This document shows positions 52,227 to 55,655 of a DNA stretch of 64,000 nt, piece after piece. The DNA lies in the NCBI RefSeq assembly GCF_000203975.2, contig NZ_AFCF02000001.1:248001-312000 (forward strand), given 5' to 3'. The first letter of the stretch is position 1; the number at the start of each line of letters is the position of its first letter. Source of the stretch: Leisingera sp. ANG1 (lineage in GTDB: Bacteria > Pseudomonadota > Alphaproteobacteria > Rhodobacterales > Rhodobacteraceae). Position numbers and translations under genes: made by a program. Below the pieces are notes generated by a model. The model worked only from the letters and a program-made list of their open reading frames with translations. It did not search any database and was not told the origin of the DNA.

Positions 52227-54566
52227 TCAGAACAGGTCCTGGCGGATCGGGTTCAGTGCGAAATGGACCTGTGCTGCCAGTTGAAGCTGGCTGATGGCGT
52301 CCTCCGGAACCGTTGCGGGCAGACCCGCTTGGCGGGCCCAGTCGGCCAGTTCCCGGCGTGAGGCCGGGCCGAACTGGCCGTCAACAGAAATGCCGGAGCC
52401 GAGCTCACGCAGGACGGATTGGGTGGCGGCGGATATGTCCGCCGTTGTCATACCCGCCAGCAGCTCCCGTGCGGCGGCACGAGCATCCGGGTCGTTCAGC
52501 GCCATTGCTTTGCCGGCCCGCGCCGCTGCAGCATGGGCCGGAATGCGGTCTCCCAGCCGGTTCAGCGCAACCCAGGCACCGTTGGCGCCGCCCCAAGCGT
52601 CGCCGCGTGCAAGCCCCATGTCATACCATTCCAGCGCCTCGGCGGCATCGCTGCCGGGCAGATCGCCGTTCATGATCATCCGGCCGATCTCACCCGGGGC
52701 ATGCGGATGGCCCAGCTGGGCGGCCTCGGCAAACAGCGCGCGGGCTTTTTCCTTGTCCACCGCCTTGCCAGCGCCGCCATCCCGGTAGACATAGCCCAGG
52801 TTGGCCGTGCCGTAGATGTCGCCGCGCCCGGCGGAGGCTTCCAGATAGGTCAGCCCGCGCTCCGGCTGCGCCAGTTCATCGCCGCTCCACAGGAAGAACA
52901 CGCCCAGTTCGTTCAGAGCATAGGTATGGCCCAGCTCCACCGCGCGGCTGAGCAGGTCAAAGCCGCGCTGTTTCTCCTCCGCCGTTCCGTTCTTGCGCAG
53001 GAGCCGCTTGCCGCGGGCATGCATCGAAAACGGGTCGCCGGCCTCGATCCCCTTGTCCCACAGGGAAAATGCCTTGTCCGGATTGTAGGGGATCGGCACG
53101 GTTTCGCGGTCGACATTCGGCGTGACATGCAGGTAGGCGACCGCGTTATAGGCGCGGACATGGCCCAGTTCCGCTGCCTTCTCAAAGGTTTCGTAGGCCT
53201 CCATCAGGCGGCCCTGGCCCTGCAGGGCGCGGCCCAGCTGATAATGCAGCCGCCCGAGGTCTGGCGCCGCCTCGACGGCCTCGCGGCAGGCGGTTTCCGC
53301 TGCCTTGAGGTCGATTTCATTGGGAAAGCGGAACAGGCCGACGCCTTGCGGATCCAGCAGGTCGCCTGCTTCAAGATCGCATTGGCGGGCAATCATCTCC
53401 AGGTTGACGGTGACGTCGCGTACCGTGTCCGCCTGCGCCAGCCGCAGCACCATCCGGTCCTTGCGGACCTGGCCGCCGTCCTTGCGGGCGGGCAGTTCCG
53501 ACAGTTTGGGGGCATAGCTGAGGCTGAGGGCGCTTCCCTCTCCGGACCGCAGCGAGGTCACGCCTGCGGAGGGTGTCTCAACAATCGACACCTTGGTGCC
53601 GGCCTGGACGTAGGGGTTGATTTCCGGCGCCAGTTCCAAGGCCCGGCCAAGCGGCACCTTCAGAGACAGTTCTGCCGGGATCTGGTCGAGGCTGGCAGGT
53701 GCAGGTTCCGTGGTGGCTTCCGGCTCCGCTAGGGCGACATTCAGCGACCGTTCGGCGGGGCGCAGATATATCTTCTGCATCAAGGTGGAGCTTTCCCAGG
53801 GCACCTGGGTGTTGCCGGTGGCGCTGTAGACATCGCTGCGGATGGCCGCCAGCACGGTCATGGCGTCCTCATTGGGGTTGTCGGGAAAATGCCGCACGAC
53901 AGAGGCGGTGTAGGGGCTGTTGCTGCCGGGCTCCCCATCCAGAGCGGTGGCGCCGGGGGAGGTGGAAAACGCCACCAGTGTGTTCAGCGGCGGGCGGAAC
54001 ACGTCAAAACCTTCGCGCGCCTCATAGAGCTGGGCGCCGACCTCGGCGTTGAGCTTGGCCTGCGGCACCGGATTGTCGCGGCAGGAATCCAGCATCAGGA
54101 TCTGGCTCCCGGCCTTGCCGCCCAGAATGGCGGACACGCGGTCCAGCGTCACCGACTGGAACGGCAGATCGTGAATGCCCGAAAGCTCCGCATCGCTGGT
54201 CAGCAGATAGTTACGCCGCCCCAGCTGGATGCCGTGGCCTGCGTAATAGAAAAACACCTGGCTGCCATCGCGGATGTTGAGCGCGGCCTGGCGCAGCAGC
54301 GCCTCAAAGCCGCGTTTGTCCAGGTCGTAGCCCTCGTAGACGGTATACCCGAAGGACTTGAGCATCCCGGCCATCGCCTCAGCGTCCTTGCGGGTATTGG
54401 TCAGATCGCTGACGTGGTCGTAATCCTGGATGCCGATGACGATGGCGGTTTCCGGGGCGGCACCCCGTTCGCTGGTTTCATAGGCCGCCTGCGCTGCCGC
54501 TGGCGGCAGCGCAAAGGTCAGCAATGCGGCTGCAATCGCTGGATGAAGGGGGGGGAGGGCTGTCAT
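52227..54566 (-). CDS. Secreted caspase-like (C14) protein with SEL1 repeats
   Basis: A 779-residue exported protein. A signal peptide (to about residue 26, PPAAAQA) precedes a caspase/metacaspase domain (about 38-260) with the catalytic histidine H111 (YYAGHGIQ) and cysteine C162 (LMLDSCRDNP). A linker follows, then TPR/SEL1-like repeats (about 430-690; for example AYETFEKAAELGHVRAYNAVAYL and ARALFAEAAQLGHPHAPGEIG). The last 80 residues contain GISVDGQFGPASRRELADWARQ, like a peptidoglycan-binding repeat. The active-site pair is intact, so it should cleave after basic or acidic residues; its target is unknown. It starts 15 bases after the stop of a lipoprotein gene and has no clear ribosome site of its own, so translational coupling is likely. 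Confidence 0.87.
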   Translation of the reverse strand: MTALPPLHPAIAAALLTFALPPAAAQAAYETSERGAAPETAIVIGIQDYDHVSDLTNTRKDAEAMAGMLKSFGYTVYEGYDLDKRGFEALLRQAALNIRDGSQVFFYYAGHGIQLGRRNYLLTSDAELSGIHDLPFQSVTLDRVSAILGGKAGSQILMLDSCRDNPVPQAKLNAEVGAQLYEAREGFDVFRPPLNTLVAFSTSPGATALDGEPGSNSPYTASVVRHFPDNPNEDAMTVLAAIRSDVYSATGNTQVPWESSTLMQKIYLRPAERSLNVALAEPEATTEPAPASLDQIPAELSLKVPLGRALELAPEINPYVQAGTKVSIVETPSAGVTSLRSGEGSALSLSYAPKLSELPARKDGGQVRKDRMVLRLAQADTVRDVTVNLEMIARQCDLEAGDLLDPQGVGLFRFPNEIDLKAAETACREAVEAAPDLGRLHYQLGRALQGQGRLMEAYETFEKAAELGHVRAYNAVAYLHVTPNVDRETVPIPYNPDKAFSLWDKGIEAGDPFSMHARGKRLLRKNGTAEEKQRGFDLLSRAVELGHTYALNELGVFFLWSGDELAQPERGLTYLEASAGRGDIYGTANLGYVYRDGGAGKAVDKEKARALFAEAAQLGHPHAPGEIGRMIMNGDLPGSDAAEALEWYDMGLARGDAWGGANGAWVALNRLGDRIPAHAAAARAGKAMALNDPDARAAARELLAGMTTADISAATQSVLRELGSGISVDGQFGPASRRELADWARQAGLPATVPEDAISQLQLAAQVHFALNPIRQDLF
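54548..54555. repeat. 8-nt G run at codons 4-7 of the caspase gene
   Basis: Eight G residues on the plus strand (CCCCCCCC in the coding strand). Slippage here would frameshift the caspase gene at its start. Confidence 0.5.
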
Positions 54567-54581
54567 GGCGAGGACAGGGGG

Positions 54582-54941
54582 TTAACCCCAGCCTCCGCCA
54601 CCGCCGGAGCCGCCACCACCGCCCCCCCCCCCCCCCCCCCCCCCCCCACCCCCCCCCCCCCCCCCCCCGCCCCCCCCGCCGCCCCCCCCGCCGCCGCCGC
54701 CGCCGGCACCAGCGCCGCCACCGCCCGGCGGGCCAACGGGTTCAATGGCTGGCGCCGCCGGTGCTGGAGCCGCTACAGGAGCAGTTGAAGTCGCGGACGC
54801 AGGCCGCGTGGCAGGCGCACTGTAGGTTGCGGGAGCAGGGGCCGGTGCGGCTGAAGGCGGCGGCGCTATCGGAGCCGTTGGTTCACAGGCCGCAGTGACG
54901 GCTGCCAAGGGCAGCGCTGCAAACAGGAAATGAATCCGCAT
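54582..54941 (-). CDS. Gly-tract lipoprotein-like protein
   Basis: A 119-residue exported protein: MRIHFLFAALPLAAVTAAC resembles a lipoprotein signal with C19 (a loose lipobox), then a Pro/Ala-rich region, then about 35 nearly uninterrupted glycines (roughly residues 73-115), ending SGGGGGWG. The Gly tract is encoded by C runs on the plus strand of 26 and 20 nt, so length in the assembly is uncertain and slippage is expected. Frame 0 stops 15 bases before the caspase start. No known family is recognised. It may be a phase-variable gene or, if the run was misread, a miscalled frame. Confidence 0.6.
   Translation of the reverse strand: MRIHFLFAALPLAAVTAACEPTAPIAPPPSAAPAPAPATYSAPATRPASATSTAPVAAPAPAAPAIEPVGPPGGGGAGAGGGGGGGGGGGGGGGGGGGGGGGGGGGGGGGGSGGGGGWG
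54622..54689. repeat. Poly-C mononucleotide tracts
   Basis: Runs of C: 26 nt at 54622-54647, 20 nt at 54649-54668, 8 nt at 54670-54677 and 8 nt at 54682-54689, with only single A or G interruptions. They lie inside the Gly-tract gene. Such long G/C runs are rare in this otherwise ordinary chromosome and are also error-prone in sequencing. On the minus strand they could form G-quadruplexes. Confidence 0.9.
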
Positions 54942-55074
54942 CGGGTACCTTTCTCTATTGAGAATACTGGTTGCAAATAAAACAATCGGTGTTCAGCCTA
55001 CTTGATCTTAGGCCGCAAATCAAAACTGTCCTGCCGCAAAATAGCTGTTCAGGTCCGCGGGGAGACTGGATTTC

Positions 55075-55542
55075 CTAGCCGCCGGTGCGGATGACAATGC
55101 TGCCATCCCGGTTCCGCTGCGCGCAGGAGGCTTCGCTCAAGGGGGCCAGCCGCGGCCCTGCGGGGACTGCCGCGTTGCGCTGGGTGCAGCGTTTCAGCGC
55201 AATTTGCTGATACCCTTTCGAGGCCATGCAGGATTTTTCCAGCCGTTTGCGCAGGGGCTTGTTCACATCGACAGTGTAAATGCCGCCGTCCACCCAGTAT
55301 CCAGGCCGGTAGTAACACTTGCCGCCGTGGCAGACCTGCCTGCCCGGGTAGAAGACAGGGGGATGCTGCCGGATTTCATTTGCGACAGGGGCGTCTTTCA
55401 GTGCCTGGGTGGCGCAGGTCAGCTCATCACTTTGCAGGCGGGAAACCTCTGCCCCCTGCTTGTAGTAGACCGGCAGCGGTCCGCAGGCCGTTGCGAAGGC
55501 CAGCAAAACAGCGGCTGCCGTGACTGTCAAACTCCGTCGCAT
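55075..55542 (-). CDS. Small lipoprotein of unknown function
   Basis: A 155-residue exported protein starting MRRSLTVTAAAVLLAFATAC, a signal with a lipobox-like cysteine at C20. It then has a cysteine-rich region (LTCATQALKD, PGRQVCHGGKCYYRPGYW, LEKSCMASKGY), with about five to six further cysteines that probably form disulfides in the periplasm. No known family is recognised. The longer frame to 55608 was rejected. It is the first gene of the minus-strand insert, 133 bases upstream of the Gly-tract gene, and diverges from trkA. Confidence 0.75.
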   Translation of the reverse strand: MRRSLTVTAAAVLLAFATACGPLPVYYKQGAEVSRLQSDELTCATQALKDAPVANEIRQHPPVFYPGRQVCHGGKCYYRPGYWVDGGIYTVDVNKPLRKRLEKSCMASKGYQQIALKRCTQRNAAVPAGPRLAPLSEASCAQRNRDGSIVIRTGG

Positions 55543-55655
55543 GGTGAAAGAATGGCCGCAAACTGAGGAAGTTACAATTAATTTGACCGTGAAAGCGGCA
55601 TCTGTCATTCACATCGGACAAATCTCTGCCCGAAACTCCGCCAAGGGACATGTAA

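Follow-up and report, generated by a model that had tools for sequence, protein, structure and literature searches.

Here we report that a long poly-G tract near the end of a small lipoprotein gene in Leisingera sp. ANG1, directly upstream of a gene for a caspase-like protease, is restricted to one species among the 20 genomes compared, and that the features shared across species appear to be the gene pair itself and the end of the lipoprotein tail. We hold, at about even confidence, that the tract is a species-specific expansion by slippage within a conserved and probably coupled gene pair, and that it would be a by-product of tail expansion and not an evolved three-state switch.

Genomes and locus organization

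The window, that is, the whole stretch of DNA analysed (64,000 nucleotides), corresponds to positions 248001-312000 of contig C1 in a genome of 4,587,644 bases and 20 contigs. The comparison set comprised 21 Leisingera genomes, one genome per species. A caspase orthologue was found in 20 of these 21 (none in G016; the copy in G010 leaves its contig at residue 682), and the lipoprotein gene lies directly upstream of the caspase in all 20. Caspase identity in ten matched loci was 85-91% in seven Leisingera, 90 and 93% in two Rhodobacteraceae, and a distant 31% in one. The features of the locus, in window coordinates, are as follows.

52227..54566, minus strand: caspase-like protease gene, 779 amino acids (PF00656, 3.8e-35; PF08238, 6.5e-09)
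53766..54449, minus strand: caspase (C14) domain, residues 40-267, with motifs YYAGHG and DSCR (profile match; motifs in 20/20 orthologues)
54478..54480, minus strand: TGA closing the -2-nt frame, 86 nt beyond the caspase ATG
54548..54555, minus strand: 8-C run, caspase codons 4-7
54563..54566, minus strand: ATGA, the stop of the -1-nt frame across the caspase start
54567..54581, minus strand: 15 nt separating the lipoprotein stop and the caspase ATG, without a Shine-Dalgarno-like site
54582..54593, minus strand: conserved C-terminal end GWG and stop (GGC TGG GGT TAA)
54582..54941, minus strand: Gly-tailed small lipoprotein gene, 119 amino acids (from translation)
54622..54689, minus strand: poly-G tract (coding strand) in the Gly tail, runs of 26, 20, 8 and 8 (run scan)
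54948..54954, minus strand: AGAAAGG, probable lipoprotein ribosome site (-4.5 kcal/mol pairing with the 16S end)
55075..55608, minus strand: second small lipoprotein-like gene, upstream, with an orthologue in the same place in 20/20 Leisingera

By translation, the 119-residue product has a signal peptide, the motif AVTAAC, which we take to be lipobox-like, a Pro/Ala-rich linker, the Gly tail, and the end GGGGWG before the stop. The second lipoprotein-like gene (55075-55608; GPLPVYYKQGAEVSRLQSDEL...) had no match in Pfam, PADLOC or NCBIfam, and is not known as a member of the lipoprotein-caspase unit. Promoter and terminator scans at the locus gave about the same numbers of sites as in shuffled sequences.

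The PF00656 match of the protease (122.1 bits against a curated cut-off of 21.4) places it among proteins with a C14 domain, and the PF08238 match marks Sel1-like repeats. The motifs YYAGHG and DSCR, conserved in every orthologue, are presumably the catalytic His/Cys pair. The protease is probably exported, its N-terminus being signal-peptide-like on our own reading. Fifteen solved chains matched by sequence all align to the repeat half alone. Assignment to an anti-phage caspase system was considered and rejected: the PADLOC caspase model matched partially (35.6 bits, 1.5e-09), neither lipoprotein matched in the PADLOC scan of the caspase and the two lipoproteins, and the NCBIfam EACC1-type match (44.8 bits) fell below its cut-off of 140.

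The poly-G tract and the frames that follow it

On the plus strand, a script run on the window located C runs at 54622-54647 (26), 54649-54668 (20), 54670-54677 (8) and 54682-54689 (8), so that the runs of 26 and 20 nt described in the original prediction are indeed present. The 8-C run that had been placed at caspase codons 4-7 is found there as well (54548-54555) and is ordinary; the genome has 21 isolated 8-base runs, to which this locus contributes three, and the 21 genomes of the genus have 15-51 each. Elsewhere in the 4.59-Mb genome no C or G run of at least 10 was found, and three others reach 9. In a simulation of 200,000 Gly tails of 44 codons, with codons drawn at their frequencies in 18 relatives (GGG 12/368), the longest G run was 14; runs of 26 and 20 are far beyond chance. 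Nor does the assembly appear to turn Gly repeats into poly-G throughout: an 8-fold GGN pattern, searched for without regard to coding frame, matched at three further sites (n=3), and all three use mixed codons.

As assembled, the lipoprotein frame ends at TAA (54584-54582), and 15 nt separate this stop from the caspase ATG (54566-54564). Deletion of one G from the longest run moves the stop to TGA at 54565-54563, giving an ATGA overlap with the caspase start, and deletion of two moves it to TGA at 54480-54478, 86 nt beyond the ATG (about 29 codons; an 89-nt overlap). The frame trace thereby reproduces the three exits that had been proposed, namely a stop 15 bases before the caspase ATG, an ATGA overlap (reached by a one-base loss), and a frame running about 30 codons past the caspase start. 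The accompanying proposal that the tract reads as glycine in all frames stands in part: by our own reading of the sequence it is true when the last run slips, but slippage in the 20-base run brings the T between runs into a Val or Trp codon.

The conserved Gly-Trp end is kept in the assembled frame and absent from both slipped frames, which argues that frame 0 is the functional frame and that slippage would cost the lipoprotein. The assembled tract length preserves the frame of the relatives, for which the chance is about one third.

Distribution of the tract among Leisingera

A G run of at least 8 in the Gly tail occurs in 0/19 of the other Leisingera orthologues (18 of them readable throughout, the G010 tail being interrupted by NN), which lends no support to an evolved three-state switch. 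The other tails use a mixture of codons, chiefly GGC, GGT and GGA, and the longest G run in the 19 other lipoprotein genes is 5. Their upstream stretches have no G/C run of at least 7 in 18 cases, with a C run of 7 in G020. Gly codons per lipoprotein gene range from 8 to 29 in the 18 readable relatives, compared with 44 here, and GGG accounts for 12/368 of their Gly codons, compared with 18/44. In a caspase-gene tree of 20 species, the tract-bearing species is placed among tract-less species; the run therefore arose on the ANG1 species branch or in assembly.

Two further observations concern individual relatives. In G010 (locus L027) a two-N gap lies approximately 240 nt into the lipoprotein gene, exactly within the Gly tail. 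On contig C7 of G004 (L090, approximately 1483-1510) a 28-G run lies between apparent inverted-repeat arms (GGGCAGCGCCCG ... CGGGCGCTGCCC), within a large contig.

A protein database search with the whole lipoprotein or residues 1-72 scored about 8000 candidates and returned no match, and a search with residues 1-40 yielded 66 candidates, none at E 10. Given a local test in which lipoprotein orthologues would score well in such a search, orthologues appear to be absent from the database searched.

Spacing and ribosome sites of the gene pair

Of the 20 Leisingera, 5 have 15 nt between the lipoprotein stop and the caspase ATG, 12 have 14 nt, 1 has 12 nt, and the remaining 2 show a TAATG overlap (-1); closeness of stop and start, from -1 to +15 nt, is thus kept in 20/20. 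A slipped frame gives an ATGA overlap in 6/20, ANG1 included, and in 14/20 one slipped frame would fuse the lipoprotein to the caspase, a fusion being called where there was no stop within 200 codons, i.e. in the caspase's own frame. Owing to spacings of 15, 14, 12 or -1 nt, the effect of slippage would differ between species, and the changing frame relation indicates that the three-state arrangement is not a conserved design. Together with the 0/19 relatives that carry a tract, this speaks against the proposed three-state switch on caspase output as an evolved arrangement. In other genera the gap is 1 and 8 nt in L049 and L050, 12-18 nt in L055 and about 43 nt in L052; L054 has the ATGA overlap (-4) in its native frame, and the caspase start of L051 is ambiguous.

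The caspase start had been described as having no clear ribosome site of its own, and in ANG1 this is so: no Shine-Dalgarno-like site precedes it, and its anti-SD pairing of +1.0 kcal/mol is the weakest among the 20 orthologues (-0.5 to -11.7 kcal/mol in the other 19), compared with -4.5 kcal/mol at the lipoprotein start. Taken with the stop-start distance of -1 to +15 nt in 20/20, the absence of an SD-like site favours translational coupling, and on spacing and ribosome-site strength the pair is probably coupled. The weak site is not general across Leisingera. Pairing is weaker than -4.5 kcal/mol at 15/20 caspase starts and stronger at 5/20 (G011, -6.1; G001 and G005, -5.7; G008, -10.1; G017, -11.7).

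At 0.33, the accessibility predicted for the ANG1 caspase start falls inside the range of relatives (0.18-0.85). The predicted mRNA fold at the locus, in which the G tract pairs with the C-rich caspase leader, is the most stable of 19 (-113.8 kcal/mol; G010 excluded because of its NN). As start accessibility is not outlying, these folding predictions would add nothing firm.

Conserved Gly-Trp end of the upstream partner

In 27/27 readable loci (L009-L028, L049-L052, L054-L056), comprising 20/20 Leisingera and 7/7 loci of other genera whose upstream DNA could be read, the product encoded upstream of the caspase ends with Trp in its last three residues, after glycines. The other-genus loci derive from eight matches at E 1e-90 among 198 family genomes, with L053 excluded as its contig starts within the caspase gene. 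Variation is seen at the margins of this set: L055 has just two glycines before the Trp, following an acidic tail, and the upstream products of L052 and L054 cannot be classed as lipoproteins with confidence. Upstream of paralogous caspases such an end was found in 0/10 fetched loci (L029-L038), many more paralogous caspases being present in the genomes searched. A second GGGWG-stop match in the ANG1 genome (C8:85313) was rejected as a paralogue, a long gene-like ORF lying there on the opposite strand.

Origin and consequences of the tract

An error of assembly or base-calling, by which the poly-G runs would stand in place of a shorter mixed GGC/GGT/GGA repeat, is a serious rival to slippage expansion, although on the whole we consider it unlikely. 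Draft genomes may contain such errors where the sequence is rich in G, and C runs of at least 14 occur in 74/248 family genomes. Among 30 run loci fetched from the family (L057-L086, each from a different one of the 74 genomes), a contig end is no more than 200 nt away in 17 and Ns adjoin the run in 3, which makes 20 in all, and several of the family loci show similar interrupted runs; the sister genome G010, moreover, has its NN gap in this very tail. Against this, the ANG1 tract is internal to its contig, 302 kb from the contig start. Likewise internal are 10/30 of the family runs and the 28-G run of Leisingera G004, which may or may not be genuine. The assembly has no other run above 9, unlike the run-ridden draft G253 (27 matches), the flanks on both sides of the tract resemble the tail of the relatives, and the total length keeps frame, which error would achieve by chance about one third of the time. 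Irrespective of its bearing on ANG1, the finding that 20/30 long poly-C/G loci lie at contig ends or beside Ns calls for caution with homopolymers reported from draft genomes.

If the tract is genuine, it could have no consequence, either by being stable enough or because caspase translation does not rely on that of the lipoprotein. The caspase start is not unusual in its accessibility, and SD-less starts are common in such bacteria. We nevertheless regard this as very improbable, as G runs of 20-26 would be expected to slip, which the available sources treat as established for G/C tracts in other bacteria, and as proximity of stop and start is kept in 20/20. An evolved phase-variation switch, in which tract length sets three caspase levels and three lipoprotein ends, appears improbable too, if slightly less so. 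The length and position of the tract suit slippage, the three frames lead to three different stops, the caspase start is weak, and in Helicobacter canadensis G tracts are reported to cause phase variation of C-termini, in which a gene may become joined to the one that follows (PMC2823697). The tract is nonetheless found in 1/20 species, the frame relation is not conserved, the genome has no repertoire of such tracts, and the conserved end is lost in slipped frames. Absence of the tract from relatives would still be compatible with a young adaptive switch.

How far the frames would differ in caspase output depends on how coupling responds to distance. Published coupling data point both ways. 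According to one study cited in a review (PMC12548453), coupling is unchanged from -4 to +25 nt and absent at -25, on which basis caspase output may be similar in frame 0 (+15) and in the ATGA frame (-4), a point against the switch. The same review also gives higher coupling at -4 than at other spacings, which favours the switch, and states that less than 20 nt of extra distance can lower coupling substantially; a phage gene pair is said there to couple at -50. Caspase output may thus differ between frames more than assumed, and distinct levels are possible.

The expansion account would run as follows. The Gly-codon tail, which varies between species by whole codons, would have been overrun by GGG codons in one Leisingera lineage through slipped-strand replication, leading to the runs of 26 and 20. 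Caspase translation, judging from the spacing and the weak ribosome site, would probably be supplied by ribosomes coming off the lipoprotein gene. The Gly tract itself would tolerate a slip, but unrelated residues would take the place of the Gly-Trp end, and by the published coupling data the caspase would stay coupled in the ATGA frame and become uncoupled in the frame with the 89-nt overlap. The locus would then probably be hypermutable, with slippage mainly harming the lipoprotein end and at times lowering caspase.

Comparison with known systems

The long simple repeat of a phase-variable locus is present here (runs of 26 and 20); the usual, if not strictly required, support of a tract kept or recurring in relatives is absent (0/19, one with an NN gap). 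With the slipped-strand phase variation at poly-G/C tracts of Campylobacter and Neisseria, as presented in the sources available, the locus shares a hypermutable sequence class in a cell-envelope gene, but it differs from them in having no tract repertoire and no conservation, and in being known from sequence alone. The closest likeness in the accessible part of the literature is to Helicobacter canadensis (PMC2823697), where, as in ANG1, a long G tract lies late in frame and a change in its length would alter the C-terminus alone, and where one frame of HCAN_0660 could merge with the next gene. In H. canadensis, however, the sequenced population was mixed in tract length and tracts are found in many genes, whereas the present case is one tract, in one species and one assembly, within a tail coding for poly-Gly.

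Conserved closeness of stop and start and a weak downstream ribosome site, as expected of a coupled pair, are both found. Described coupled gene pairs (PMC12548453 and PMC3711429, each as available in part) share with the locus the short stop-start distance kept across species, the weak downstream site (in ANG1) and the TAATG or ATGA overlap (in some relatives). They differ in that spacing varies among Leisingera, that a fair ribosome site precedes the caspase start in 5/20 species, and that coupling is predicted here. Orthocaspases and metacaspases of family C14 with Sel1 repeats (PMC3501461) resemble the protease in their His/Cys motifs, Sel1-like repeats and signal-peptide-like N-terminus; the accessible part of that source does not mention a partner gene with a Gly/Trp end. 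For phase variation in Leisingera, the literature retrieved, as far as available, consisted of Phaeobacter work (PMC6224355), and in the searched literature, available in part, we found no case in which tract length alters both a lipoprotein end and caspase coupling, and no mention of a Gly/Trp-ended partner of bacterial caspases.

Implications

If the tract is real and slipping, the locus would be a natural case, in a marine alphaproteobacterium, in which tract length changes both the end of a lipoprotein and the coupling of a caspase. It is conceivable, at a slim chance, that the exported caspase and the Trp-capped Gly-tail lipoprotein form a conserved two-protein unit of the Rhodobacteraceae, the caspase for example binding or guarding the end, and that in ANG1 poly-G slippage both removes this end and resets translation of the caspase, which would then exist in three heritable states. 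The conserved Gly/Trp-ended partner is a more solid lead than the tract switch. Independently of the tract, the pairing of a caspase with a Gly/Trp-ended, mostly lipoprotein-like product offers a testable lead to a partner or substrate of the caspase.
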